Both the position numbers and the translations under genes were made by a program. Shown piece by piece: positions 45,150 through 61,526 of a stretch of DNA of 64,000 nucleotides. The first letter of the stretch is position 1. Every line of letters begins with the position of its first letter. This stretch comes from Chryseobacterium gleum (GTDB taxonomy: Bacteria; Bacteroidota; Bacteroidia; Flavobacteriales_D; Crocinitomicaceae), in assembly GCA_945897755.1 (NCBI GenBank), contig CAMDGH010000001.1, positions 23,671 to 87,670 on the forward strand, given 5' to 3'. The notes under the pieces are model-generated. The model had not been told where the DNA came from. It did no database searches and was given only the letters and a program-made list of their open reading frames with translations.

Positions 45150-45746
45150 TTAACACGTCTTCAAAATCTCATCGATATAATTCAACAAAGGTTCTTTACC
45201 AAATTTCGATTCGCTAGAAGTAGCAAAAACTGGGGGTAATTCTTCCCACTGCTTCAACATTTCCTTTTTATAGCTCAAAATATTTTTTTGTTTTTCTGAA
45301 GAAGATAATTTGTCTAACTTTGTGAAAACCATAGAGAAAGGAATTTCTTTTTCTCCACACCATCCCATAAATTCTAAGTCGATATTTTGCGGAGGTAATC
45401 TTGCATCTAACAATACAAAAGTGTTTAACAAGGTTTTGCGTTGTGTTAAATAAGCCGCAATAAATTCTTCCCACCCATGACGTGCTTTTTTAGAAGCCTT
45501 CGCGAATCCGTATCCTGGTAGATCGACCAAGTACCATTCATTATTGATTTCAAAATGATTGATTAACTGTGTTTTCCCTGGAGTTCCAGAAGTTTTTGCT
45601 AAGCTTTTTTGATTGGTCAACATATTGATTAACGATGACTTACCTACATTAGACCTCCCGATAAATGCGAATTCTGGCTTGTTGTCTTCTGGACAAAGCT
45701 TGTGATCTGAGTTACTCACTTTGAATGTTGCTGTTTTTATGATCAT
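45150..45746 (-). CDS. engB: Ribosome biogenesis GTP-binding protein EngB (YsxC/YihA)
   Basis: The 198-residue GTPase of the TRAFAC class has G1 G-R-S-N-V-G-K-S-S, the T-P-G-K-T switch, G3 D-L-P-G-Y-G and G4 T-K-L-D. It assists late assembly of the 50S subunit. Length is normal. It is transcribed away from the dcw cluster; the roughly 400-base gap on its upstream side also holds the mraZ control region. Confidence 0.95.
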   Translation of the reverse strand: MIIKTATFKVSNSDHKLCPEDNKPEFAFIGRSNVGKSSLINMLTNQKSLAKTSGTPGKTQLINHFEINNEWYLVDLPGYGFAKASKKARHGWEEFIAAYLTQRKTLLNTFVLLDARLPPQNIDLEFMGWCGEKEIPFSMVFTKLDKLSSSEKQKNILSYKKEMLKQWEELPPVFATSSESKFGKEPLLNYIDEILKTC

Positions 45747-45984
45747 ACGGAGTGTTTTTTATGCGAATTTAGTGATTATTTTTAGTCTTTCTGATGTTTG
45801 GTTTTCTAAAGCTTTCCTTGTAGTTGATGCATTGTAATTGAGTTATTTATGGTCTATATTAAAAATAGTTTAACTCTTTTTGCATTAGGATCGTTCAATC
45901 TCTTTTTTGATGTTTCCATCTCTGTCTGAATTTGTTTTTGAGCAACAAAAAAAGATTAAGTTTTCCACATAAATTTATATTTTA

Positions 45985-46001
45985 CCACTTTATACCACTT
46001 T
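45985..46001 (-). promoter_or_regulatory. Inverse-oriented pair of AAAGTGG repeats upstream of mraZ
   Basis: CCACTTT occurs at 45985-45991 and 45995-46001, exactly 10 bases apart. On the minus strand this reads AAAGTGG-TAT-AAAGTGG, which fits the AAAGTG[T/G]-N3 MraZ box pattern known from mollicutes. A further CCAC at 45965 keeps the same 10-base phase. Possible MraZ binding site, facing away from mraZ. Confidence 0.5.
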
Positions 46002-46091
46002 CATTTATATGAGTTATATATATGATATACATAGTTTTATGTTTAAAAATGCAACCTTTTAGTATGTTTAATCGTACGAAGTTATTAACAT

Positions 46092-46116
46092 AGTGTAAAA
46101 GAGTGGTAATAAGTGG
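46092..46116 (+). promoter_or_regulatory. Putative MraZ operator: three direct repeats, 10 bp period
   Basis: AGTGT (46092), AGTGG (46102) and AGTGG (46112) lie on one helical face with exact 10-base spacing, ending 36 bases before the mraZ start codon. MraZ is known to bind direct repeats of a TGGG- or AAAGTG[T/G]-like core upstream of its own gene, one core per subunit. The rest of the 406-base gap (45747-46152) is AT-rich with no ORF recognised. Confidence 0.6.
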
Positions 46117-46152
46117 ATGAAACTTCACTAAATTTACCCATTATTAATTGTT

Positions 46153-46614
46153 ATGGCTGGTTTAGTAGGAGAATATGAGGTTAGGTTGGATGCCAAAGGG
46201 CGTTTCCTGTTTCCTTCGTCGTTGCGTAAGCAATTGTCTCCTGCTGCCCAAGAAAAATTTATGTTGAACAAAGGTTTTGAGGAATGTTTAACACTTTATC
46301 CAATGAATGAATGGGATAGATTAAGTGGAAAGCTGTCTAAAATGAATTTGTTTAAGCCAAAAAACAGGATGTTCTACCGTCTATTTCATCAAGGAGCGAA
46401 GTCAATTGCGCTTGATGGGGTCGGAAGGGTTTTGATTCCTTCTTCTTTGATGGAGAGAGTTGGTTTAGATAAAGACGTGATGCTCATAGCCTATAATGAT
46501 CGCATAGAAATTTGGGATAAAACCAAGTACTTCGATGTTATTGAAGGGAACATGGCAGATTTTGCTGATTTAGCAGAGGAAGTAATGGGTGATATAAATG
46601 ATGACGACGAATAA
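46153..46614 (+). CDS. mraZ: Transcriptional regulator MraZ
   Basis: The 153-residue protein has two AbrB-like MraZ repeats: an N-terminal Y-E-V-R-L-D-A-K-G-R-F-L-F-P-S-S-L-R and a C-terminal A-L-D-G-V-G-R-V-L-I-P-S-S-L. It forms a ring-shaped oligomer that binds tandem DNA repeats and controls the dcw operon. The candidate operator lies just upstream. The gene overlaps rsmH by 17 bases. Confidence 0.95.
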   Translation: MAGLVGEYEVRLDAKGRFLFPSSLRKQLSPAAQEKFMLNKGFEECLTLYPMNEWDRLSGKLSKMNLFKPKNRMFYRLFHQGAKSIALDGVGRVLIPSSLMERVGLDKDVMLIAYNDRIEIWDKTKYFDVIEGNMADFADLAEEVMGDINDDDE

Positions 46615-47521
46615 AGAGGTTTACCACGTTCCAGTTTTACTTGATGCTTGTTTGGATGGTTTAAAAATCAATCCTGACGGGGTATACGTAGATGTTACCT
46701 TCGGTGGTGGTGGTCACTCGAAAGCTATTTTTTCAAAATTATCAGAAAAAGGTCAATTGATTGCCTTTGACCAGGATCCAGATGCGCAAAAGAATGCATG
46801 GGATTCACCTAACTTCAATTTAATTCCTTCCAATTTCGCCTTTTTAAAAAATCATTTACGCGCCTTAGGAATTGATAAGGTTGATGGTGTTTTAGCTGAT
46901 TTAGGTGTTTCTTCCCATCAGTTTGATGAAGGGAAACGTGGTTTTTCAATTCGTTCCAATGATCCTTTAGATATGAGGATGAATCAAATGGGTTCTTTTT
47001 CAGCATTTAATTTAGTTAACGAATATGAAGAAGATGAGTTGATCGTTATTCTTAGGAAGTTTGGAGAGGTTTCTTCACCGGGAAAAGTTGCTGGGACTAT
47101 TTGCAGGGGCAGGCAAGCACGCCCGATCAAAACTACAGGTGAGTTAATGGATATTCTTGCGCCTATAGCTCCAAAATTCAAAGAACATAAGTTTTATGCC
47201 CAAGTTTTTCAGGCGATTCGTATGGAGGTGAATAAGGAGTTAGATGTGTTGGAAAAGTTTTTATTGCAAACGCAGGATGTGCTCAAGCCTGGAGGCAGAT
47301 TGGTTGTAATGTCTTATCATTCCCTGGAAGATCGCTTGGTAAAAAATTATATTAAACGTGGAAATCTAGATGGTTCAATAGAAAAAGATTTTTACGGAAA
47401 TATATTAAAGCCTTTTATTGACATTACGAGAAAGCCTATTTCTCCATCTGTTGTTGAGGTTGAGCAAAATTCAAGAGCTAGAAGTGCAAAATTAAGAATA
47501 GCAGAGAGAAGCAATGGATAA
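46598..47521 (+). CDS. rsmH: 16S rRNA (cytosine1402-N4)-methyltransferase RsmH
   Basis: The 307-residue SAM-dependent enzyme has Y-V-D-V-T-F-G-G-G-G-H-S (SAM site), G-V-L-A-D-L-G-V-S-S-H-Q-F-D and D-P-L-D-M-R-M. It methylates N4 of C1402 in the ribosomal P site. Two neighbouring ATGs (46598, 46601) could start it. It overlaps mraZ upstream and the ftsL-like gene by 8 bases downstream. Confidence 0.97.
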   Translation: MMTTNKEVYHVPVLLDACLDGLKINPDGVYVDVTFGGGGHSKAIFSKLSEKGQLIAFDQDPDAQKNAWDSPNFNLIPSNFAFLKNHLRALGIDKVDGVLADLGVSSHQFDEGKRGFSIRSNDPLDMRMNQMGSFSAFNLVNEYEEDELIVILRKFGEVSSPGKVAGTICRGRQARPIKTTGELMDILAPIAPKFKEHKFYAQVFQAIRMEVNKELDVLEKFLLQTQDVLKPGGRLVVMSYHSLEDRLVKNYIKRGNLDGSIEKDFYGNILKPFIDITRKPISPSVVEVEQNSRARSAKLRIAERSNG

Positions 47522-47930
47522 TGAATATGTTGAGCCAGGTAAGCAGGATTCTGAGAATACTACTAAACCGAAAATTAAAAAAGTGAAAAAAGCGCAAAAG
47601 CGTTCTCAATCTTTTCATGTGATTATTCAGCTATTGAATGGCGAATTCCTTATGAAAGATTTTGTAGTTAAAAATTTAACCTATGTTTTTTTTGTGTTTC
47701 TATTATTGATATTGGTTATTTCTAAAGGTTATTATGCGAAAAGCTTGGTTGAAAGCATTGACACTATTCAAAAAGATACGAATGCGAAAACTGCTCAATA
47801 TGTTGAATTAAAAGCGCGTCTTGAGTATCAGACGAGAAGAAATGAATTAGTGAGAAGATTGAATCCGGTAGGCTTGTTTGAAACAAAGAAGCCAGCTAAA
47901 GTAATTAGAATTAAAAAGGGAACGAAGTGA
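47514..47930 (+). CDS. FtsL-like division protein
   Basis: The 138-residue protein has a Lys-rich cytoplasmic N-terminus, a single membrane helix (about residues 57-75) and a short extracytoplasmic coiled coil. This fits FtsL by size, topology and position between rsmH and the ftsI-type gene; sequence similarity in this family is always weak. FtsL with FtsQ and FtsB-like partners activates septal wall synthesis. It overlaps the next start by 4 bases. Confidence 0.75.
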   Translation: MDNEYVEPGKQDSENTTKPKIKKVKKAQKRSQSFHVIIQLLNGEFLMKDFVVKNLTYVFFVFLLLILVISKGYYAKSLVESIDTIQKDTNAKTAQYVELKARLEYQTRRNELVRRLNPVGLFETKKPAKVIRIKKGTK

Positions 47931-50062
47931 CTGATAAACAATCCATAGCGCTTAGAGTCTATTTTGTTGGTTTTGTATTTATTGCAGCTCTTTTATGCGT
48001 TGTTTTTGAAACCTTTTCTATTCAAATGGATGAATATAATCCTGAGTTTAAAACAAATTCGAAATACAACAAAAAAATACCAGTACGTATCTCTAAGAGA
48101 ACACCTCGGATGGGGGATATCCTCGATATGAATGGTATTTCAATGGTGACCTCTATTTCTTTTTTTGATATTTATATGGACCCGACGGTTCCAAGTAAAG
48201 AAGTCTTTGATTCTGAGATTACTGATTTGTGTGAGAAATTAAGTGATTTGTTTCCAGAGGATATTGATCAGCGTGATTTTGAAAATAAAGTGCGTAATGC
48301 GCGTGAAAGAGATCAAAAATATTTATTAGTCAGAAAAAAGGTGACTAATGAGCAACGAAACAGGATAAAAGAGTTCCCGATTTTTAAATTAGGTAGAAAT
48401 AAGGGTGGATTAATTGATTTTATTGAGAATAGCATTAGAAAACGTCCTTTTGGAGATTTGATGAGTCGTACTTTAGGATATTATAAAGTGCTTAAAAATA
48501 ATGAGGTTTTGCGTGTAGGTATTGAAGGGGCGTTTTATGAATACTTGAAAGGGGAAGAAGGGGAAGAGATTGAACAAAGAATTTCAACGGGTTGGAAAAA
48601 AACGGGTCAGGTAATCAAAACGTCTGTTGAAGGAGCAAATGTGGTAACTTCAATTGACAAGGAAATTCAAGAAGTTGCACACAATGAATTATACACTCAA
48701 TTAAGAGATCAAAATGCAACGAGTGGATGCGCTATCGTCATGGAGGTTAAAACTGGTTTCATAAAAGCGATAGTCAACTTATCCCAAGAAAATGATGAAA
48801 GTCCATCAGGTAAAAAATCAAATGTAAAACCTGTTTTTACAGAACGTTATAATCAAGCCATTGGATCTAGAGAGGTTCCCGGTTCTACTTTTAAGTTAGC
48901 TTCTTTAATGGCGGGGCTTGAAGACGATAAATTTAAAATCTCGGATGAAGTTCAGGGGGCTAGTTTGTATCGTTTTAATGGACTAACCTTGCATGAAGTT
49001 AAAGGTCATAACTATGGTAAAATGACTATCCAACAAGCATTTGAAAAGTCTTCTAATGTTATTGCTAGAATCATATATAGGGCATATCGCGATGAGCCTC
49101 AATTGTTCATTAAGCGTTTAGAACAATTTGGATTAACAGAGTCGTTAGACCTTGATTTAGTCGGTGAGCCAAATCCTAAATTTTATCGACCAGGATCTAA
49201 TAGTTGGCATAATGCGACCCTTGCTTCCATGGCTGTAGGGTATGAGTTTCAACAAACACCTCTTCAAACATTAGCTTTTTATAATGCGGTTGCTAATCAC
49301 GGTAAATTTATGAAGCCTCAATTTGTAAAAAAAATTACGCGTGGTCAAGACCTTGTGAAAGAATTTCAACCCATCGTTTTAAAACAGAAAATTTGTTCAA
49401 TGCAAACATTAGAGATTCTTCAAAAATGTTTAAAAGGAGTTATGACTGATGGAACGGGTAAGAAAATAACCTCTTCTTATTTTGATATTGCAGGTAAAAC
49501 TGGAACTGCAATGATATTAAATGATAAAAGTAAAAAAAGTGAACATGTTTATTTAGCCTCTTTTGTTGGCTATTTCCCAGTCAAAAACCCCCTCTATTCT
49601 TGTATTGTTTCGGTTGAAGCTGTTGGTAATAATGTGTATGGTGGATCAATGTCCGGTAAAGTTTTTTCAGAAATTGCAAATAAAGTCTATGCGACTAGTT
49701 TGAAATATCATAAAGCAATTAATGAAAATGGTGTAAAAAAACATGAGGTTCCTATTTCAAAAAACGGAAATAGTTATGATCTAAAAAAAGCATTAAAAAA
49801 ATTAAATGTTCCATATCGATCTAATACGCATGAAGAATGGGTAAAAACGACTAAAGGGAATGTAGTGGTATTGGATCATGTTGCTTTCAATAAGTCAAAG
49901 GTTCCTAATGTGATTGGAATGACTGCAAAAGATGCCGTAAAGTTAATAGAAACAACTGGAATGTATGTTAGTTTGAGGGGTTATGGTAGGGTTGTGAGTC
50001 AGACTGAGCCTGCAGGGAATCCAGTTTATAAAGGAGGTTTAATTCAATTGAAACTTGAATGA
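47927..50062 (+). CDS. ftsI: Penicillin-binding protein 2/3 type transpeptidase with PASTA domain (FtsI)
   Basis: The 711-residue class B PBP has one N-terminal membrane helix (about 8-28), a dimerisation domain and a transpeptidase domain with catalytic Ser320 (G-S-T-F-K), the S-S-N motif and Lys524-Thr-Gly (G-K-T-G-T-A). A C-terminal PASTA domain follows (V-P-N-V-I-G-M-T-A-K-D-A-V-K-L-I). It cross-links septal peptidoglycan. The start is GTG, overlapping the ftsL-like gene by 4 bases. Confidence 0.94.
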   Translation: MTDKQSIALRVYFVGFVFIAALLCVVFETFSIQMDEYNPEFKTNSKYNKKIPVRISKRTPRMGDILDMNGISMVTSISFFDIYMDPTVPSKEVFDSEITDLCEKLSDLFPEDIDQRDFENKVRNARERDQKYLLVRKKVTNEQRNRIKEFPIFKLGRNKGGLIDFIENSIRKRPFGDLMSRTLGYYKVLKNNEVLRVGIEGAFYEYLKGEEGEEIEQRISTGWKKTGQVIKTSVEGANVVTSIDKEIQEVAHNELYTQLRDQNATSGCAIVMEVKTGFIKAIVNLSQENDESPSGKKSNVKPVFTERYNQAIGSREVPGSTFKLASLMAGLEDDKFKISDEVQGASLYRFNGLTLHEVKGHNYGKMTIQQAFEKSSNVIARIIYRAYRDEPQLFIKRLEQFGLTESLDLDLVGEPNPKFYRPGSNSWHNATLASMAVGYEFQQTPLQTLAFYNAVANHGKFMKPQFVKKITRGQDLVKEFQPIVLKQKICSMQTLEILQKCLKGVMTDGTGKKITSSYFDIAGKTGTAMILNDKSKKSEHVYLASFVGYFPVKNPLYSCIVSVEAVGNNVYGGSMSGKVFSEIANKVYATSLKYHKAINENGVKKHEVPISKNGNSYDLKKALKKLNVPYRSNTHEEWVKTTKGNVVVLDHVAFNKSKVPNVIGMTAKDAVKLIETTGMYVSLRGYGRVVSQTEPAGNPVYKGGLIQLKLE

Positions 50063-51519
50063 TGAATACACTTGAAATCATAACTCTTATTCGGCCAACT
50101 AAGGTTGTTGGTATGGTCAATTTTTCAATCACGGATGTAGTCTTTGATTCTAGGATAGCTTCCTCTTCCTCTTTATTTGTAGCCATTAAAGGGGTGCACG
50201 TAGATGGGCACGATTTCATTTATTCGTTAGCTACTAATGGAGTAAGATTAATTGTTTCAGAAGTTTTTGTTGAGGTCCCAGATAAGTGTTGTTTGTTAAT
50301 TGTAGAAAATTCTGCACGTGCACTGGGTGTAATTGCAGCCGCTTTTTATGGTAATCCATCTAATAAATTAAAACTGATTGGGATTACGGGTACGAATGGG
50401 AAAACAACTTCTGTTACTTTGTTACATGCTTTGTTTTTAGGATTAGGTTACAAGGTAGGCTTACTTTCTACGGTTGTTAATAAGATTGGGCTACAAGAAT
50501 ATCCATCCACACACACTACTCCTGATCCGATTTCCTTAAATAAATTATTAGCTGAAATGGTTTCACAAGGATGTGATTATTGTTTTATGGAGGTAAGCTC
50601 TCATGCTGTTGTTCAAGAAAGAATTGCTGGTCTTTGCTTTCAAGGTGGAGTATTTACAAACATTACGCACGATCATTTAGATTATCATGGAACGTTTAAG
50701 GAATATATTTTTGCTAAAAAAAGATTCTTTGACCAAATGGAAATAGGCGCTTTCGCTTTAACCAATGTTGATGATAAAAATGGTCAGGTGATGATGCAAA
50801 ATACAAAAGCATTGGTTTATTCTTATGCGCTTAAATCACCAGCAGATTTTAAAGTGAAAATTATGGAGAATCAATTCTCAGGATTGGTTTTAAATATAAA
50901 TAATCAAGAAGTTTGGACAAAATTAATAGGATCTTTTAATGCCTATAATTTATTGGTAGTTTATGCCGTCTCTATTTTGTTAGAGCAAGATCCAATTGAA
51001 ACTTTAAGTGTGTTGAGTAACCTTGACTCTGTTGTAGGTCGTTTTCAATATGTTAGAAGTAATACGGGCATCATTGCAATCGTAGATTATGCGCATACGC
51101 CTGATGCGTTAGAAAATGTGTTGCATACGATTGGGTCCATACGATCTCGGAATGAAACTGTTTTTACGGTTATTGGATGCGGAGGGGATAGAGATAAGAC
51201 TAAAAGACCTAAAATGGCATCAATCGCTTGCGATTTAAGTGATAAAGTAATCATTACATCTGATAATCCACGTTCCGAAAATCCAGAAGATATAATAAAG
51301 GATATGATGGAGGGAGTTAGTGGACTACATTTTAAAAAAACACTGTCAATTTCCGATAGGGAACAAGCAATCAAAACAGCTTGTGCAATGGCCTTACCAA
51401 ATGATATTATTCTGATTGCGGGTAAAGGGCATGAGAACTACCAAGAAATTAATGGTGTCAAACATCATTTTGATGATATGGAGATAGTTAAACAATTATT
51501 TATAAAATTAGGAATATAA
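50059..51519 (+). CDS. murE: UDP-MurNAc-tripeptide synthetase MurE
   Basis: The 486-residue Mur ligase has the P-loop [11 protein letters not shown] and H-T-T-P-D-P. The D-N-P-R motif at residues 402-405 indicates meso-diaminopimelate as the third residue, typical for Gram-negative walls. ATG overlaps the ftsI stop (ATGA), and the gene's last base is the first base of mraY. Confidence 0.97.
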
Positions 51520-52766
51520 TGTTGTATTATTTATTTGATTTCTTAGACAAGATGAATTTTCCAGGGGCTGGATTATTTCATTTTATTTCTTTTCGTGCTG
51601 CTTTAGCATTGATAAGCTCTTTAATAATCTCAGTCGTTTTTGGTAAGAAATTGATCAATTTATTGAGGAATCAACAAATTGGTGAAACGGTTCGAGATTT
51701 AGGTTTGTCTGGTCAAATTGAAAAGTCAGGTACTCCAACAATGGGTGGACTAATCATTTTAAGCGCAATTATAATACCAACCTTGCTATTCGCTAAGCTT
51801 CACAATATATATGTGATTACAATGTTGATTACTACTGTTTGGCTTGGTTTAATCGGTTTTATTGACGATTATATTAAAGTTTTTAGAAAAAACAAAGACG
51901 GACTTGCAGGGAAGTTTAAAATTGTCGGACAAGTTGGAGTAGGAATAATTGTAGGTTGTATTTTATATTTTAATAATGATGTTAAAGTTCATAAGCTAGT
52001 CCATAATTCACATGTGTTGAGCCCTGAAGAACGTCTTGTAAATCATCATCATACTGATTTAGTAAAGGATGCTCATTTTAAGTGGATTGAAACCCGAGAT
52101 ATGACGACTACTATTCCTTTTGTTAAAGGAAATGAATTCAATTATAATTGGTTGATTAAGGATTCTAACAAATCTTGGGGATGGTTGATTTTTATTCCGG
52201 TTGTGATTTTTATTGTAATTGCGGTCTCTAATGGGGCTAATATAACCGATGGTTTAGATGGATTGGCAACAGGAACTTCTGCGATTATTGGACTTGCATT
52301 AGCTGTATTTGCTTATGTGAGTTCTAATGTCCGTTTTGCAGATTATTTAGATGTGATGTATATTCCAAGGGCAGAGGAGTTGGTTATTTTCATTGCCGCT
52401 TTTGTTGGTTCCTGTATTGGTTTTTTGTGGTATAATTCATATCCAGCTCAAGTTTTTATGGGAGACACAGGTAGTTTGGCTCTGGGTGGTATTGTTGCAG
52501 TATTTGCTATATCTATTCGAAAAGAGTTATTGATTCCTATTTTGTGTGGTGTATTTTTAATCGAGAATCTTTCGGTCATGATTCAAGTGGGGTATTTTAA
52601 GTATACCAAAAAACGATTCGGTGAAGGAAGGAGGGTTTTCCTGATGGCTCCTCTTCACCATCATTATCAAAAGTCAGGAATTCATGAAGCGAAAATTGTT
52701 TCTCGCTTTTGGATTATTGCGGTCCTTCTTGCTGTAATTACAATTGTAACTCTTAAAGTGAGATAA
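51519..52766 (+). CDS. mraY: Phospho-MurNAc-pentapeptide transferase MraY
   Basis: The 415-residue integral membrane enzyme has about ten helices. Signatures are [31 protein letters not shown] and [12 protein letters not shown], holding the catalytic Asp residues, plus P-L-H-H-H-Y. It makes lipid I from undecaprenyl phosphate. A hydrophilic insert around residues 155-195 (N-N-D-V-K-V-H to E-T-R-D) makes it longer than the 360-residue E. coli protein. Confidence 0.97.
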
Positions 52767-52768
52767 TA

Positions 52769-54112
52769 ATGGAAGGAAAAGGGAAATTCATTGTAATTCT
52801 TGGTGGTGGTGAAAGTGGTGTTGGTGCTGCTATTCTTGCCATTAAAAAAGAATGGACTGTTTTTGTTTCTGATTCGGGATCGATTAAAGATGAGTTTAAA
52901 TTAGAACTTGATGATTATGGTATTCTATGGGAGGAACAAGGTCATTCTTTAGATAAAATGCAAAACAGTGATTTGGTAGTTAAATCACCGGGGATACCAG
53001 ATTCTTCAAGTATTGTAAGGTTTTTCAAGGATAAAAGCATTCCTATTATTTCAGAAATAGAATTTGGTGGTTTTTACTGTAATGCTAAAACCGTTTGTAT
53101 TACTGGAAGTAACGGTAAAACGACTACTACGATGTTAATTTACCATATTTTTAAAAAGGCAAATATCAATGTGGGTCTTGCTGGTAATGTAGGAAAAAGT
53201 TTTGCCAAGCAAGTTGCAGTTGAAAAATTTGACTGGTATGTATTAGAATTAAGTTCATTTCAATTAGATGGCATGTATACATTTCAAGCTGATATCGCTG
53301 TTTTGTTAAATATTACGCCTGATCATTTAGATAGATACGATTACAATATGCAACACTATGTTGATTCTAAGTTACGTATCATACAAAATCAAACACCTCA
53401 ACATTATTTCATTTACAATGCTGACGATGAGTTAATTGTGAATGAGATAAATAAAAAAAATATGCAATCTACGATGTTGCCTTTCAGTATCATTAAGGAA
53501 TTGGAAGTAGGCGCATACAGTATAAATAATCAAATAATCATAAATATAAAAGATCCAATTATTATGTCAATCCACGATTTAGCTTTAAAAGGGAAACACA
53601 ACACCCAAAATTCACTTGCTTCTGGAATAGCAGCTCGTTTAGTAGATATTCGCAAAGATGTTGTGAGAGAAAGTTTCACTGATTTTGTAAATGTTGAACA
53701 TCGCTTAGAATTTGTTGCGAAAGTTCATGGAATTTCATTCATAAATGATTCGAAAGCAACTAATGTAAATTCTACTTGGTTTGCATTGGAAAGTATGGAA
53801 AACCAAACGGTATGGATTGTTGGGGGTGTTGATAAAGGGAATGACTACGCTGAGTTAACGGACCTAGTGAAAGAAAAAGTGAAGGCAATTATTTGTCTTG
53901 GTCACGACAATAAAAAAATTATCGATGCCTTTTCAGGTTTTGTAGATACGATTGTTGAAGCTGGATCTGCAATTGAGGCGGTTGCCTATGGATATCGCTT
54001 AGCTAAAAAAGATGAAACGGTTTTACTTTCTCCTGCATGTGCAAGTTTCGATTTGTTTGAAAATTATGAAGATAGAGGAAATCAATTTAAATCGGCTGTA
54101 AAGTCTTTGTAA
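52769..54112 (+). CDS. murD: UDP-MurNAc-L-alanine:D-glutamate ligase MurD
   Basis: The 447-residue Mur ligase has an N-terminal UDP-binding Rossmann segment V-I-L-G-G-G-E-S-G-V-G, the P-loop C-I-T-G-S-N-G-K-T-T-T, N-I-T-P-D-H-L-D-R and F-I-N-D-S-K-A-T-N. It adds D-Glu to UDP-MurNAc-L-Ala in the cytoplasm. It begins two bases after mraY. Confidence 0.97.
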   Translation: MEGKGKFIVILGGGESGVGAAILAIKKEWTVFVSDSGSIKDEFKLELDDYGILWEEQGHSLDKMQNSDLVVKSPGIPDSSSIVRFFKDKSIPIISEIEFGGFYCNAKTVCITGSNGKTTTTMLIYHIFKKANINVGLAGNVGKSFAKQVAVEKFDWYVLELSSFQLDGMYTFQADIAVLLNITPDHLDRYDYNMQHYVDSKLRIIQNQTPQHYFIYNADDELIVNEINKKNMQSTMLPFSIIKELEVGAYSINNQIIINIKDPIIMSIHDLALKGKHNTQNSLASGIAARLVDIRKDVVRESFTDFVNVEHRLEFVAKVHGISFINDSKATNVNSTWFALESMENQTVWIVGGVDKGNDYAELTDLVKEKVKAIICLGHDNKKIIDAFSGFVDTIVEAGSAIEAVAYGYRLAKKDETVLLSPACASFDLFENYEDRGNQFKSAVKSL

Positions 54113-54128
54113 TTTTAAATAAATTAAT

Positions 54129-55304
54129 TTGTTTCAATTATTTAAATACCTTAAAGGAGACCGTGCAATCTGGGTAATTTCAATTGTATTACTAGGGTTT
54201 TCAATGGTAAGTGTGTTCAGTTTTGTTCCTATTCTTGTGAAAATCGAGAAGGGTTCAACACCGTATCATTTCTTATTAAAACATATGTTTTATGTTTTAA
54301 TTGGATTTGCAGCTATGTTTTTTATTCATAGAAAAGATCCAATTATTTTTTCCAAATATGCCAAGCTTGCCTTAATTGTTTCTATTATTCTCCTTCTTTA
54401 TACAATGGTTTTTGGAACAAAAGTAAATGATGCAGGAAGGTGGATTAAAATCCCATTTATTGGATTAACATTCCAATCATCAGATTTTGCTAAACTTGGA
54501 TTAATTATTTATTTATCGAAGGTTTTAGCCAAACGAAAAGATGATTTTAAAAACTGGAAATCAGGATTTTGGAATGTTATTGGGCCAATTGCATTCGTTT
54601 GTATTTTAATCCTAAAGGATAATTTTTCTACGGCCATTCTTTTGTTTATGATGTGTTTCATTTTACTTTTTATTGGTAGGTATCCGATTAAAAAAATGTT
54701 AGCTGCAATTGGTTCTGGTATGGCTATTGCGTTACTTTTGGTAGGTCTTCATATTGCTCTTCCAAGCGTAAATATCCTGCCGAGGTATGAAACTTGGAAA
54801 AACCGGATATTAAATCGCATGGAAAGTGATCGCAATGTGTTAGCGAATGCCCAGTCTAAAAATGCGGAATTAGCAATTTATAATGGTGGTTTTATTGGAC
54901 AAGGGGTAGGTGATGGAAAGTTAAAGGAATACTTACCCGAAGCTTATGCAGATTTCTATTATTCTAGTTTTGTTGAGGAGTTTGGATCGCTCGCTGCAAT
55001 TGGTTTAATTTTTATTTATGCGTTATTAATGTTTAGGACTATTCGGATTGGACTTAAGTCAGATAAGGCCTTTGAGACTTTTTTGTGTGTAGGAATTGCA
55101 ATTTTATTGTTAACACAAGCTACCGTTAATATGATGGTGTGTACAGGCATTTTTCCTGTAACGGGACAAAATATGCCTTTGCTTGCAATGGGAGGATCGG
55201 CCTTAATTATGACATGTGTTTCTATTGGGATCATTCAATCGGTTGCAAGTCGTTTGAAAAATACTGAAAATCAGTCGGAAAGTGAAAATAGTATCGAAGT
55301 TTAA
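54129..55304 (+). CDS. ftsW: Cell division SEDS glycosyltransferase FtsW
   Basis: The 391-residue SEDS protein has about ten membrane helices. Landmarks are A-G-R-W-I-K-I-P-F-I-G-L-T-F-Q-S-S-D-F-A-K, K-D-N-F-S-T-A, and F-P-V-T-G-Q-N-M-P-L-L-A-M-G-G-S-A near the C-terminus. It polymerises lipid II at the septum together with the class B PBP. The start appears to be TTG at 54129 because no ATG lies in the first part of the frame. Confidence 0.95.
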   Translation: MFQLFKYLKGDRAIWVISIVLLGFSMVSVFSFVPILVKIEKGSTPYHFLLKHMFYVLIGFAAMFFIHRKDPIIFSKYAKLALIVSIILLLYTMVFGTKVNDAGRWIKIPFIGLTFQSSDFAKLGLIIYLSKVLAKRKDDFKNWKSGFWNVIGPIAFVCILILKDNFSTAILLFMMCFILLFIGRYPIKKMLAAIGSGMAIALLLVGLHIALPSVNILPRYETWKNRILNRMESDRNVLANAQSKNAELAIYNGGFIGQGVGDGKLKEYLPEAYADFYYSSFVEEFGSLAAIGLIFIYALLMFRTIRIGLKSDKAFETFLCVGIAILLLTQATVNMMVCTGIFPVTGQNMPLLAMGGSALIMTCVSIGIIQSVASRLKNTENQSESENSIEV

Positions 55305-55306
55305 AT

Positions 55307-56410
55307 ATGGATAGAGTCGTTATTTCTGGAGGTGGTACTGGTGGACATATTTTTCCAGCGATTGCTATCGCAAATGAGTTAAAAGATCGTTTCCCAACGA
55401 TTGATGTTTTATTTGTTGGTGCTTTAGGCAAAATGGAAATGCAAAAGGTCCCTGCGGCAGGTTATAAAATCATTGGACTTCCAATTACTGGATTCCAGCG
55501 TAGGATTACCTTATCTAATTTTTTACTTCCTTTTAAATTAATATATAGTCTTTTTTTAGCATATCGCTTAATTAAAAAGTTTAATCCGGATGTTGTTATT
55601 GGTGTTGGGGGATACGCAAGTGGACCGACTTTGAGGATGGCTGCACTCGCTGGCATTCCTTCGGTGATCCAGGAACAAAATTCTTTTCCTGGAAAAACAA
55701 ATCAATTGTTAGCTAAACATGTTTCTAAGGTTTGTGTTGCTTATGACGGATTGGATGTTTTTTTTCCTGCTTCAAAACTTATTTTTACCGGAAATCCTGT
55801 AAGAAATGAAGTCATTACGATTACGGGTAAACGGGAAAGTGGAATCAATTTTTTTAAATTAGATCCTTCGCGTAAAACAATTTTGATTGTCGGTGGAAGT
55901 TTAGGGGCTAGAACTTTGAACGAAAGTATAGTTTCTAATTTGGAGATCATCTATGAATCTGGTTGTCAGGTTTTATGGCAATGTGGATCATATTATTTCC
56001 CTCAATTGAATGAATCAAATCATTTGTTTGTCAATAATCGTGTTCATTTAAATGAATTTATTAAAGAAATGGATTTAGCTTATTCTGTTGCCGATATTAT
56101 TGTTTCTAGAGCTGGAGCTATTTCTATTTCAGAGTTATGTTTGGTGAAAAAACCGATTATTTTAGTTCCTTCTCCTAATGTTGCTGAAGATCATCAAACG
56201 AAAAACGCACTTGCTTTATCCTCAAAAAATGCAGCTCTTTTGGTTTCTGATATTTCAGCAAAAACAGTATTGATTCCTACTGTTTTATCAACATTAAAGG
56301 ATGATGTGCTGATGAAGGAATTGAGCATGAACATATCCAAATTGGGAATTAATGATGCCGCAAACAGGATTGTAAATGAATTGGTTAATTTGGTGAGTCA
56401 TGGAAAATAG
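55307..56410 (+). CDS. murG: UDP-GlcNAc:lipid I N-acetylglucosaminyltransferase MurG
   Basis: The 367-residue GT-B enzyme has the G-loops S-G-G-G-T-G-G-H-I-F-P-A and V-G-G-Y-A-S-G-P, L-I-V-G-G-S-L-G-A-R-T-L-N, and S-R-A-G-A-I-S-I-S-E-L. It makes lipid II on the inner face of the membrane. It starts two bases after ftsW and overlaps the first possible murC start. Confidence 0.97.
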   Translation: MDRVVISGGGTGGHIFPAIAIANELKDRFPTIDVLFVGALGKMEMQKVPAAGYKIIGLPITGFQRRITLSNFLLPFKLIYSLFLAYRLIKKFNPDVVIGVGGYASGPTLRMAALAGIPSVIQEQNSFPGKTNQLLAKHVSKVCVAYDGLDVFFPASKLIFTGNPVRNEVITITGKRESGINFFKLDPSRKTILIVGGSLGARTLNESIVSNLEIIYESGCQVLWQCGSYYFPQLNESNHLFVNNRVHLNEFIKEMDLAYSVADIIVSRAGAISISELCLVKKPIILVPSPNVAEDHQTKNALALSSKNAALLVSDISAKTVLIPTVLSTLKDDVLMKELSMNISKLGINDAANRIVNELVNLVSHGK

Positions 56411-57779
56411 TAAAATGGAAACGTATAAAAATGTATATTTTATTGGTGTCGGAGGTATTGGTATGTCTGCTTTAGCAAGGTATTTTAATGTCTTAGGTTA
56501 TACTGTTTATGGATATGATAAAACGCCTTCTCCTTTAACTGATACTTTGATTAGGGAAGGGGTTCTAATTCATTTTGATGACAATCCTAATTTAATTATT
56601 GAACTAGGATTAACGATTTTAGACACCTTGGTTGTGTATACTCCAGCGATTCCATCAGACCTCAATGAATTTATTTATTTCTCTGATCATGCTTTTACTT
56701 GTTTGAAAAGGGCAGAAGTGCTGGGGTTAATTACACGAAATTCTAAAAGTGTTTGCGTAGCGGGTACTCACGGTAAAACGACTACGAGTGCTATGTTAGC
56801 GCATATACTTCATAATTCAAGTGTAGGATGTAATGCTTTTTTGGGTGGTATAGCAACTAATTATGATACAAATTACTTGGGTTCAACTACTTCTGAGTAT
56901 ACGGTTATTGAGGCAGATGAGTTTGATCGGTCATTCCTTCAATTAACTCCTTTTATTTCAATTATTACTACAACTGATGCTGACCACTTAGATATATATG
57001 GTAATGTGGAGGAATTTGCGTGTGGATTTAACGCTTATGCTCATTTAATAAATGAGCAAGGAGCTCTCATCGTAAGAAAGGGAATTACCTTGGATTCTGT
57101 TGCGCATCAAATTACGTATGGGAGTGAACTAGATGCGGATTTTTCGTTTATTAATCTGCGTTTTGAGAATAATTTCCAATTAATGGATGTCTATTTTCAA
57201 GGACAATGCTGGACGGATGTTCATTTGGGTTTACCAGGCCTTCATAATGCTGAAAATGCATTGGCTTGCATTGCAGTTTGTATATCTATTGGTTTAACAG
57301 AAGTTGAGATTAGAGATTCACTTCGTTCTTTTAAAGGGGTTAAGAGAAGATTTGAGTTCCATATTAGAAGGAATGAGTTAGTTTACATCGATGATTATGC
57401 GCATCACCCAACAGAAATAAATGCGTTGGTGAATTCGATTAAGAATTTGTATCCGAATAAAAAGATTACAATGGTTTTTCAACCACATTTGTTTTCTCGA
57501 ACACGAGATTTTATTGATGGGTTTGCTCAAGCATTATCTGCTGTTGATTGTCTTTACTTATTGCCTATTTATCCGGCACGTGAAAAACCCATATTGGGTG
57601 TTACCAGTGATGCACTATTTGATTTAATTGATTTAAAGGACAAGCATTTGGTGCCTTACGCAAACCTAGTGGATGTTTTTGTTGTTCCTTCGGAAGGAGT
57701 ATTATTAACCGTCGGTGCTGGTGATATAGACCGCTTGGTGATGCAGTTAAAATGTAAAATTGAAGAAACGTTTAATTAA
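56400..57779 (+). CDS. murC: UDP-MurNAc:L-alanine ligase MurC
   Basis: The 459-residue Mur ligase has an N-terminal F-I-G-V-G-G-I-G-M-S-A-L-A-R, P-loop A-G-T-H-G-K-T-T-T-S, E-A-D-E-F-D-R-S-F-L and D-D-Y-A-H-H-P-T-E-I. It attaches the first L-Ala. Two starts are possible: ATG 56400, overlapping murG by 11 bases, and ATG 56415 just after the murG stop; the family motif begins soon after the second. Confidence 0.97.
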   Translation: MENSKMETYKNVYFIGVGGIGMSALARYFNVLGYTVYGYDKTPSPLTDTLIREGVLIHFDDNPNLIIELGLTILDTLVVYTPAIPSDLNEFIYFSDHAFTCLKRAEVLGLITRNSKSVCVAGTHGKTTTSAMLAHILHNSSVGCNAFLGGIATNYDTNYLGSTTSEYTVIEADEFDRSFLQLTPFISIITTTDADHLDIYGNVEEFACGFNAYAHLINEQGALIVRKGITLDSVAHQITYGSELDADFSFINLRFENNFQLMDVYFQGQCWTDVHLGLPGLHNAENALACIAVCISIGLTEVEIRDSLRSFKGVKRRFEFHIRRNELVYIDDYAHHPTEINALVNSIKNLYPNKKITMVFQPHLFSRTRDFIDGFAQALSAVDCLYLLPIYPAREKPILGVTSDALFDLIDLKDKHLVPYANLVDVFVVPSEGVLLTVGAGDIDRLVMQLKCKIEETFN

Positions 57780-57780
57780 G

Positions 57781-58593
57781 ATGAAGTTGTGGCTTAAAAT
57801 TTTATGTTGGTTTTTGTTTTCCAGTCTTGTTTTCCTTGTAATTAGGGCAGCAAAAAAGGAGGAATCAGATACGGAAATCGCTTATCCAGAAGTTTTTATA
57901 GATGTTAAGGGTGAAAATGCGTTCCTAAATGAAAATGAGCTAAAAAATAGACTTAAACGTAAAGGATTAGTTTACCCTAATCAACCAAAAGACAGCTTAA
58001 ATATTCATAAAATTGAATCTTTCATTCAGAATATGTCAGAGGTTTTAGAGGTAAAGGTATTTGTAAACATTGGTAATTCTTGGAAAATAGTGATTAGGGT
58101 CCGTAAGCCAATTGCCCGAATTTTTAATGCCTATGGAGAGAGTTATTACTTAGATGAATTGGGCTATATGATTAGAAATTCATACCTTTATACGGCTAGG
58201 GTTGTTGTTGTTTCTGGTGAAATTGAAGAGCATTTCTCGAAACGTTCAGTATCAGAAATTATTAACAATAAGTCCTTGAAAAGTAAATCAGAATTAGATG
58301 ATATCTATCGAATATCGTCTTATGTTTGTAAAGATCCTTTTTTTAATTCACAGATAGGTCAAATCTATCTCGAAAAAAACGGTGACTTTTTATTGGTGCC
58401 GCGCGTTGGTGATCAAAAAATAATATTTGGAACAGCTCATAATAGGCTTGAAGTCTCAACGAAATTTCGTAAATTAGCAGACTTTTATGCACAAGGAATT
58501 CCTTATGAAGGCTGGAGTACTTATAATTGCATTAATTTAAAGTACAAAAATCAGGTAGTTTGTAGTAAAAAAGAAAATAATATAGAAAAATGA
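57781..58593 (+). CDS. ftsQ: Cell division protein FtsQ-like
   Basis: The roughly 270-residue protein has one N-terminal membrane helix (about residues 5-22) and a periplasmic region with a POTRA-like part (D-V-K-G-E-N-A-F-L-N-E-N-E-L-K) followed by the FtsQ domain (R-K-P-I-A-R-I-F-N, Y-Y-L-D-E-L-G). Length and position between murC and ftsA fit. The track start is a TTG at 57760; ATG 57781, one base after the murC stop, gives a better N-terminus. It overlaps ftsA by 4 bases. Confidence 0.85.
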   Translation: MKLWLKILCWFLFSSLVFLVIRAAKKEESDTEIAYPEVFIDVKGENAFLNENELKNRLKRKGLVYPNQPKDSLNIHKIESFIQNMSEVLEVKVFVNIGNSWKIVIRVRKPIARIFNAYGESYYLDELGYMIRNSYLYTARVVVVSGEIEEHFSKRSVSEIINNKSLKSKSELDDIYRISSYVCKDPFFNSQIGQIYLEKNGDFLLVPRVGDQKIIFGTAHNRLEVSTKFRKLADFYAQGIPYEGWSTYNCINLKYKNQVVCSKKENNIEK

Positions 58594-59870
58594 AGCATCA
58601 GATAATTGTGGGTTTAGATATTGGTACAACCAAGATTGCATGTTTTGTTGGTAAAATGAACGAGCATGGTAAGATTGAGATTTTATCAATGGGGAAAAGT
58701 GATTCACTTGGAGTTGCAAGGGGGGTTGTTGCGAATATCGAGAAAACCGTGACATCAATTAAGGCTGCTGTAGAAGAGGCTCAGTCGCGTGTTGAAGGCG
58801 AACTTAAGATTAGATCTGTTAATGTAGGCATTGCTGGTCAGCACATTAAAAGCTACCAACATCGGGGCATGATTGTCCGTAATAGTCTTGATGAGGAAAT
58901 ATCTCAGAAAGACATAAACACTTTGATTGACGATATGTACCGATTGTCCATGGAGCCAGGTGAAGAAATTATTCATGTTTTACCTCAAGAATTTATTGTA
59001 GATAATGAACAAGGGATTAAAGATCCTATAGGAATGTCTGGAATAAGATTGGAAGCGAATTTCCATACGATTACGGGTCATGTATCTGCAGCGAGAAATA
59101 TAAATCGTTGTGTTGAACGTGCTGGTCTTGTTATAAAAGAGACTATACTTGAGCCTTTGGCTTCTGCTGATGCCGTTTTATCTGAAGATGAAAAAGATGC
59201 TGGTGTTGTTTTAGTTGATATTGGTGGTGGAACTACTGATATCGCTGTTTTTCATGAGGGTATTATTCGTCACACTGCTGTAATTCCTTTTGGGGGCAAT
59301 GTAATTACCGAAGATATTAAAGAGGGATGTACAATAATGAAAAAACATGCAGAAACGCTAAAGGTTAAATATGGATCTGCTGTTTCTTCCGAAAGCTTAG
59401 ATAATGAAGTGGTTTGTATTCCTGGCCTAACAGGTAAGCCTCACAAAGAAATTTCTTTACGAAATCTTGCAAATATTATACAGGCAAGGATGGAGGAGAT
59501 TATTGGTCATGTGTATCTTGAAATTAAAAATTCAGGATATGAAAAGAAACTAATTGGGGGTATTGTTGTAACGGGTGGTGGTGCTCAATTGAAACATTTA
59601 CCTCAATTGTTTGAGTTTTTAACAGGAATGGATACTCGGATTGGCTATCCTACAGAGCATTTAGGTAGCTCGAATACAAGCGATGATTTAAAGAGTCCGA
59701 TGTACTCAACTGGAATTGGACTTGTTTTAAAAGGGTTTCAAGCAATTGAAAAGTCAATTGAGCAGCCTTTAGTTGACGAAAGAATTGATTTGATAAATAA
59801 CCCTAAAAAAGGTTCCTTTTTTGAATCAATATTTATAAGAAGTAAACAGTTTTTAACTGACGAAGATTAA
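58590..59870 (+). CDS. ftsA: Cell division protein FtsA
   Basis: The 426-residue actin-family ATPase starts with V-G-L-D-I-G-T-T-K-I-A-C-F-V-G and has D-I-G-G-G-T-T-D-I-A-V-F and V-V-T-G-G-G-A-Q-L. It anchors FtsZ to the inner membrane, normally through a C-terminal amphipathic helix; the tail F-F-E-S-I-F-I-R-S-K-Q-F-L could serve this. Its start overlaps the ftsQ stop. Confidence 0.97.
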   Translation: MKHQIIVGLDIGTTKIACFVGKMNEHGKIEILSMGKSDSLGVARGVVANIEKTVTSIKAAVEEAQSRVEGELKIRSVNVGIAGQHIKSYQHRGMIVRNSLDEEISQKDINTLIDDMYRLSMEPGEEIIHVLPQEFIVDNEQGIKDPIGMSGIRLEANFHTITGHVSAARNINRCVERAGLVIKETILEPLASADAVLSEDEKDAGVVLVDIGGGTTDIAVFHEGIIRHTAVIPFGGNVITEDIKEGCTIMKKHAETLKVKYGSAVSSESLDNEVVCIPGLTGKPHKEISLRNLANIIQARMEEIIGHVYLEIKNSGYEKKLIGGIVVTGGGAQLKHLPQLFEFLTGMDTRIGYPTEHLGSSNTSDDLKSPMYSTGIGLVLKGFQAIEKSIEQPLVDERIDLINNPKKGSFFESIFIRSKQFLTDED

Positions 59871-59906
59871 ATTAATTAATGTAATTAAATTGAAAATATA
59901 AGAAGT

Positions 59907-61526
59907 ATGGAGTTTGATATACCAAAAAATACATCTCAAATAATTAAAGTTATCGGTGTTGGTGGCGGCGGAAGTAATGCTGTTAATCATATGTACAACA
60001 TGGGGATAAAAGGAGTTGATTTTATCGTTTGTAATACAGATAAGCAAGCATTAGATATTTCTAGTGTTCCATATAAAATTCAATTGGGAGTGTCTTTGAC
60101 TGATGGAAATGGCGCAGGTGCAGTTCCTGAAATAGGCAAAAATGCTGCAATTGAAAATATTGAAGATATCAAAGATTTGCTAGGAAAAAACACTAAAATG
60201 TTATTCGTTACTGCAGGTATGGGCGGTGGTACAGGTACTGGTGCTGCTCCTGTAATTGCTGGTATTGCTAAAGAAATGGGTATTTTGACAGTAGGTATTG
60301 TTACTGTCCCGTTTAATTTTGAAGGTAAAAGACGTAGGGTTCAAGCTGAGGAAGGTCTTGAGCAGATGCGACAAAATGTAGATACATTACTGGTTATCAA
60401 TAACGAAAAGTTACGCGAGTTAACTGGTAATTTGCCTATAAATAATGCATTTTCTAAAGCAGATGATGTATTGACTGTTGCTGCTAAAGGAATTGCAGAA
60501 TTAATTTCTGTTACAGGGCAAGTAAATGTCGATTTTAATGATGTTTCTACTGTAATGAAAGATTCTGGAGTTGCTATCATGGGATCAGCATCTGTTGAAG
60601 GTGAAGATAGAGCAATAAGATGCGTGCAAGAAGCGATGAGTTCTCCTTTATTAAATGATAATAATATCTTAGGTGCTAAGTATGTTTTATTAAACATTAC
60701 GTATGGAGCGAAGGAAGTTTTGATGGACGAAATCACCGAAATCACCGATTTCATTCAAGATGAGGCTGGGGCTACTGCTGATGTTATTTGGGGCCATGCT
60801 TACGATCCTTCTTTAGGGGATAGTTTATGTGTTACAATTATTGCTACTGGCTTTAAAACGTCTCCTATAACTGGAGCAGATAAGGCGCCTGCAAAAACAG
60901 TTTTGCCTTTAGAGGATGAACCAATGCGTGAAATTAAAAATCCCTTGTTATCTGCTACAGAGACGGTAAAAAAAACAAATCTTTCGTCTGATTCTTTTAA
61001 CGGAAATGGGTTTAATGCTCAAGTTGAACCTATTATCAATAATGAAGTGAAAACTTCTGTAGAAAATAGAATTGTAGGAGAAGAAAAGAAAGAGGAAACT
61101 CTTGAAACAACTGAGTGGGTTGTTAAATCATATGCTACTCCTGAATTTGTTGTCAATGAAGAGGTGAATCAAGAAGATGGTTTTGTTGTTCCGATTGATA
61201 CTACGCGAAAAATTGTTCATAATTTGGAAGATGATTCTCCTCAGAATTTTGAGATCCCGGTTACGCGTAAGATCACCTCTACGGTTGAACAACAACGATT
61301 AAATGCTGAGCGTATTGGGAGGATTCAAGATTTAACTCACAAACTTAAAAGAGCAGATGGATTAGCTTCTTTAGAGTCTGAACCTGCTTATGTACGTAAA
61401 AATATTAGCTTAGATTTTTCTAATCCTAGTTCAGCTTCTACGACTTCTCGTTTTGGTGTTGTAGGGAATGGTCAAAATGCAACTTTGAAGAGTAATAATT
61501 CTTTTTTACACGATAATGTCGATTGA
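59907..61526 (+). CDS. ftsZ: Cell division protein FtsZ
   Basis: The 539-residue tubulin homologue has I-G-V-G-G-G-G-S-N-A-V-N-H and the tubulin signature G-M-G-G-G-T-G-T-G-A-A-P. The GTPase core ends near residue 320, followed by a long variable linker of about 160 residues. A peptide S-E-P-A-Y-V-R-K resembles the conserved C-terminal peptide that binds FtsA, but about 40 more residues rich in Ser and Asn follow it. FtsZ builds the division ring. It overlaps the next gene by 11 bases. Confidence 0.98.
   Translation: MEFDIPKNTSQIIKVIGVGGGGSNAVNHMYNMGIKGVDFIVCNTDKQALDISSVPYKIQLGVSLTDGNGAGAVPEIGKNAAIENIEDIKDLLGKNTKMLFVTAGMGGGTGTGAAPVIAGIAKEMGILTVGIVTVPFNFEGKRRRVQAEEGLEQMRQNVDTLLVINNEKLRELTGNLPINNAFSKADDVLTVAAKGIAELISVTGQVNVDFNDVSTVMKDSGVAIMGSASVEGEDRAIRCVQEAMSSPLLNDNNILGAKYVLLNITYGAKEVLMDEITEITDFIQDEAGATADVIWGHAYDPSLGDSLCVTIIATGFKTSPITGADKAPAKTVLPLEDEPMREIKNPLLSATETVKKTNLSSDSFNGNGFNAQVEPIINNEVKTSVENRIVGEEKKEETLETTEWVVKSYATPEFVVNEEVNQEDGFVVPIDTTRKIVHNLEDDSPQNFEIPVTRKITSTVEQQRLNAERIGRIQDLTHKLKRADGLASLESEPAYVRKNISLDFSNPSSASTTSRFGVVGNGQNATLKSNNSFLHDNVD

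Follow-up and report, generated by a model that had tools for sequence, protein, structure and literature searches.

The phased repeats at 46092-46116, upstream of mraZ, are best explained as O1, the mraZ-proximal half of a bipartite MraZ operator that would autoregulate mraZ and, via mraZ, the dcw cluster, with an inverted pair of boxes farther upstream (O2) acting as auxiliary operator; we put the probability of this reading at about three in four. On sequence comparison, the three repeats noticed in the original prediction are one half only of a conserved structure, which also includes O2, a conserved 9-mer and a promoter element that the prediction did not contain (Table 1). Few bacterial transcription regulators are as widely conserved as MraZ, whose gene stands first in the cell-division cluster. 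To our knowledge, the MraZ operator is characterized from a few model species only, none of them from Bacteroidota, and a search of open-access papers for MraZ sites from Bacteroidetes returned none.

The identity of the gene is clear in the window (the whole stretch of DNA analysed, 64,000 nt): the mraZ product scored 112.9 bits against Pfam PF02381 (cut-off 23), with two domains, matched the solved MraZ structures 1n0e, 9qlr, 9qlg and 9sx6, and contains both DxxxR-type loops (LDAKGR and LDGVGR).

Table 1. Features of the mraZ leader and its surroundings, with coordinates in the window.
Feature	Coordinates	Strand	Sequence or basis
engB/ysxC	45150..45746	-	TIGR03598, 222.7 bits; divergent neighbour of mraZ
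TGTGG	45965..45969	-	part of TTTTCCACA on the + strand; in phase with O2 at 20 bp (two turns); columns partly conserved
O2, inverted pair of predicted MraZ boxes	45985..45999	-	minus-strand sequence AGTGGTATAAAGTGG; 104 bp away from box 2 of O1
Conserved 9-mer	46082..46090	+	TTATTAACA; class form TTWTYAACA; abuts box 1
O1 box 1	46092..46096	+	AGTGT; degenerate third MraZ box (predicted), in exact 10-bp phase with boxes 2-3
O1 box 2	46102..46106	+	AGTGG; near-invariant in ~80 relatives; phased GTGG boxes class-wide
O1 box 3	46112..46116	+	AGTGG; same basis as O1 box 2
Probable -7 promoter element of mraZ	46129..46136	+	TAAATTTA; Bacteroidota consensus TAnnTTTG
mraZ	46153..46614	+	153 aa; Pfam PF02381 and PDB MraZ matches
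rsmH/mraW	46598..47521	+	TIGR00006, 313 bits; next dcw gene after mraZ
Rest of the dcw cluster	47927..61526	+	NCBIfam matches
PBP/FtsI-like; murE; mraY; murD	47927; 50059; 51519; 52769	+	NCBIfam matches
ftsW-like; ftsA; ftsZ	54129; 58590; 59907	+	NCBIfam matches

Phased boxes upstream of mraZ

As originally described, AGTGT, AGTGG and AGTGG start at 46092, 46102 and 46112 with a period of 10 bp, leaving 36 bases (46117-46152) between box 3 and the ATG of mraZ (46153). The pattern AGTGKN5AGTGKN5AGTGK has a single occurrence on the two strands of the 64-kb window and is absent from all of 100 dinucleotide shuffles. We compared this leader with a close set, comprising the best 80 relatives by MraZ (Crocinitomicaceae and related Flavobacteriales, both MAGs and isolates), and with a distant set of 105 Bacteroidia genomes from 52 families. 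Boxes 2 and 3 (RGTGGTAAAAAGTGG) are nearly invariant in about 80 Crocinitomicaceae, where they take the form [AG]GTGGTAAAAAGTGG and lie 35-50 nt 5′ of the ATG. Because the position of box 1 carries GTG (GTGT) in 13 of 78 Crocinitomicaceae, as opposed to 0-2 at the other offsets tested, we regard box 1 as real though degenerate, that is, a decayed box poorer than boxes 2 and 3.

The same arrangement extends to the class. GTGG boxes in exact 10-bp register, two to four in number and most commonly three, precede mraZ in 86 of the 105 Bacteroidia genomes (46/52 families), against a single genome of the 105 in a reversed-letter control; the box unit is AAGTGG[T/G]AAA, with T (50%) or G (40%) after GTGG. 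The comparison of related mraZ upstream regions that the original prediction had called for thus found the phased boxes kept in close and distant relatives, and this strong conservation supports its proposal of an MraZ operator of the dcw cluster; the boxes are almost certainly such an operator, here a predicted binding site. The predicted operator can be extended to the whole class, with the consensus AAGTGG[T/G]AAA every 10 bp, TTWTYAACA before it and TAnnTTT after it.

The mollicute repeat, with its 3-base spacer, has a 10-bp period, as in the window. Fisunov (2016), as cited in PMC8475190, gives the mollicute MraZ site as direct repeats of AAAGTG[T/G], which share with the window the AGTG[T/G] core and a single genome locus; as a difference, the M. 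genitalium paper reports the motif in the mraZ promoter only and, in the accessible text, makes no mention of an inverted auxiliary site. The E. coli K-12 mraZ operator (NC_000913.3) reads AGTGGGAAATTGTGGGGCAAAGTGGGA, with boxes AGTGGG, TGTGGG and AGTGGG, and resembles that in the window in having three GTGG boxes with an exact 10-bp period just 5′ of mraZ (AGTGGGAAAT TGTGGGGCAA AGTGGGA), but it has G after GTGG where the window has T or A, and no inverted second pair in the ~160 bp upstream that were searched. The E. coli MraZ operator was reportedly treated by Eraso et al. in 2014, a study cited in PMC5138195 and PMC8475190. The earlier statement that the site in the window is nearer to the mollicute form found no support, since the E. 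coli boxes share both the AGTGG core and the 10-bp period, and T and G are both frequent after GTGG in Bacteroidia; as we read these sequences, the contrast between mollicute and E. coli sites is a product of how the boxes were trimmed.

The inverted second pair

A pattern search of the 2.48-Mb genome retrieved three strict GTGGKANNNNGTGG pairs, two of which are O1 and O2 at mraZ. The opposed pair is kept in 78 relatives, with an O2-O1 spacing of 94-110 bp (mode, 104-105), although the sequence of the spacer is only 43% identical at 80% MraZ identity. Class-wide, strict inverted pairs occur in 31 of 105 Bacteroidia leaders, against 3 in the control, and O2 is therefore not universal; additionally, the composite of O2, 9-mer and box was found in 58 of 395 Bacteroidia genomes and in none with the reversed control. 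As far as could be found, an inverted second MraZ pair has no earlier description, and it is a conserved feature that work on single species would miss. A wider MraZ regulon was considered and rejected: the genome contains no further convincing site, and the third GTGGKANNNNGTGG match (C107) has a GC-containing spacer (GTGGTACTTCGTGG).

The divergent gene in the window is engB, and the equivalent position in many other Bacteroidia families is taken by an alpha/beta hydrolase with engB behind it, which would fit with O1 alone being the mraZ operator and O2 a separate MraZ operator of the divergent gene, coupling division to ribosome assembly. The neighbourhood of O2 in 75 Crocinitomicaceae makes this unlikely, because the upstream gene varies (EamA-like in 30, engB in 6, other genes in 29 and none divergent found in 10), and O2 lies anywhere from -22 to >1000 from the divergent start whereas O2-O1 stays at 95-110 bp. 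In terms of standard deviation, spacing varies by 3 bp between O2 and O1 vs. 167 bp between O2 and the start of the upstream gene, be this engB, EamA-type, other or a co-directional neighbour. Moreover, no 9-mer or -7 element is conserved beside O2 on the minus strand. Since the O2-O1 spacing is fixed whatever the upstream gene, O2 most likely belongs to the operator of mraZ rather than to that of engB, and engB/ysxC is probably not its target.

Several minor observations concern the surroundings of O2. In the window, the alpha/beta hydrolase gene is missing from this position and engB is adjacent. The TGTGG on the minus strand beyond O2 is possibly an extra weak box or a DnaA-like box, and in one group of relatives (L040, L042, L057, L059, L063 and others) the minus strand beyond O2 carries two to four clustered TTWTCAACA-like 9-mers, possibly related to DnaA.

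We also examined the spacer for helical phasing. Class-wide, O2 and the 9-mer are separated by distances that cluster near 60-61, 70-75 and 80-88 bp, and a circular test at 10.5 bp gave p ~0.02 at the family level and ~0.001 at the genus level, genera not being independent; the best-fitting period is, however, above 12 and exceeds a helical turn. Within Crocinitomicaceae, the O2-O1 spacers of 102-110 bp span most of one helical turn, and phasing of this spacer is suggestive only.

Probable promoter overlap and predicted mode of action

The sigma-A -7 consensus in Flavobacterium is TAnnTTTG (PMC9723704). In all 80 relatives of the Crocinitomicaceae set that were scored, the corresponding TANNTTTR starts 11-12 nt beyond the last box. 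TAnnTTT (followed by A, G or T) begins 10-12 nt beyond it in 48 of 86 Bacteroidia, and fewer genomes have the element at 21-22 or 31-32 nt; these offsets are separated by 10-bp steps. A scan for E. coli-type sigma-70 promoters gave matches no commoner than in shuffles, as expected in Bacteroidota. From the position of the -7 element we infer that transcription of mraZ would start near 46141, giving a leader of ~12 nt and placing the O1 boxes at approximately -48 to -25, where they would overlap the -33/spacer region of the promoter.

MraZ forms rings in which each subunit presents a DxxxR loop, and these rings read direct repeats on one helical face. The 10-bp-spaced GTGG boxes would share one face of the helix, and therefore neighbouring subunits of one MraZ ring could each read a box. 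MraZ bound to O1 would cover the -33/spacer region, compete with RNA polymerase and repress mraZ; because O1 overlaps the probable promoter, repression by occlusion is the most likely outcome, with the caveat that MraZ acts as an activator or a repressor depending on the species and that its sign here is uncertain. O2, about ten helical turns upstream, would most likely raise the occupancy of O1, probably with one or two MraZ rings bridging the two sites or looping the DNA between them, and O1 and O2 are probably occupied jointly. The comparison establishes the sequences, their conservation, their fixed spacing and their independence from the upstream gene; MraZ binding, repression and joint occupancy are inferred.

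Looping operators with two sites per promoter, ~90-115 bp apart, are known from GalR (OE/OI) and Lac (O1/O3), and the predicted MraZ operator is comparable in having two operators of one promoter at a similar distance. Conversely, the GalR and Lac repressors are dimers or tetramers on palindromes, while MraZ is a ring on direct repeats, and looping by MraZ is a proposal. The two-site layout offers a simple test case for a ring-shaped regulator using more than one DNA site.

The conserved 9-mer next to box 1

TTWTYAACA was present in 152 of 178 sequences, at a distance of 1-4 nt from box 1, to which 10 or 20 nt are added if that box is degenerate; its columns are near-invariant in the Crocinitomicaceae relatives. 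It may link the division genes to another factor. The motif differs by one base from the DnaA-box consensus TTWTNCACA and does not itself qualify as a DnaA box. In the window there are 12 copies of TTWTCAACA vs. 5.2 expected, a mild excess equalled in 2 of 100 shuffles, and consensus DnaA boxes are not enriched. A replication origin in the window was considered and rejected, as the GC skew keeps its sign at mraZ and DnaA boxes show no enrichment.

The likeness of the 9-mer to a DnaA box, together with its fixed distance from box 1 across the class and the binding of DnaA to the ftsL promoter region in Bacillus subtilis (review PMC8203912), could indicate that MraZ reads the boxes but that 9-mer and boxes serve mainly as a DnaA/MraZ switch tying dcw transcription to the initiation of replication. 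We consider this slightly less probable still than a separate operator for the divergent gene: a DnaA reading of TTWTYAACA is without proof in this phylum, the GC skew is unchanged at mraZ, no origin was located, and triple clusters of such 9-mers turned up in no more than 5 of the 25 family genomes and shared no site. Least credible by far is that the boxes are chance repeats and no operator, since a short motif in an AT-rich leader could arise in this way but class-wide conservation and the absence of matches in shuffles refute it.

Returning to the two-part MraZ operator, a more elaborate version of it is tentative and would, if anything, be the less probable outcome: Crocinitomicaceae and several other Bacteroidia families may control the dcw promoter by a two-operator loop in which one or two MraZ rings clamp opposed arrays about ten turns apart, beside a DnaA-like 9-mer, so that the switch for the cell-division genes would be tightly autoregulated and possibly tied to replication.

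Other motifs were noticed around the 9-mer. In Crocinitomicaceae leaders, TG[AT]AACCTTT is conserved between O2 and the 9-mer (e.g., at 46050-46060 in the window) and CGTTA directly before the 9-mer; in some families, the stretch between O2 and the 9-mer also contains TAnnTTTG, perhaps a second promoter. Incidentally, three AGTTATNAACA-type 9-mers lie together at a contig end elsewhere (G000:C45:20034-20086, the end of L271), and this cluster could be part of oriC.
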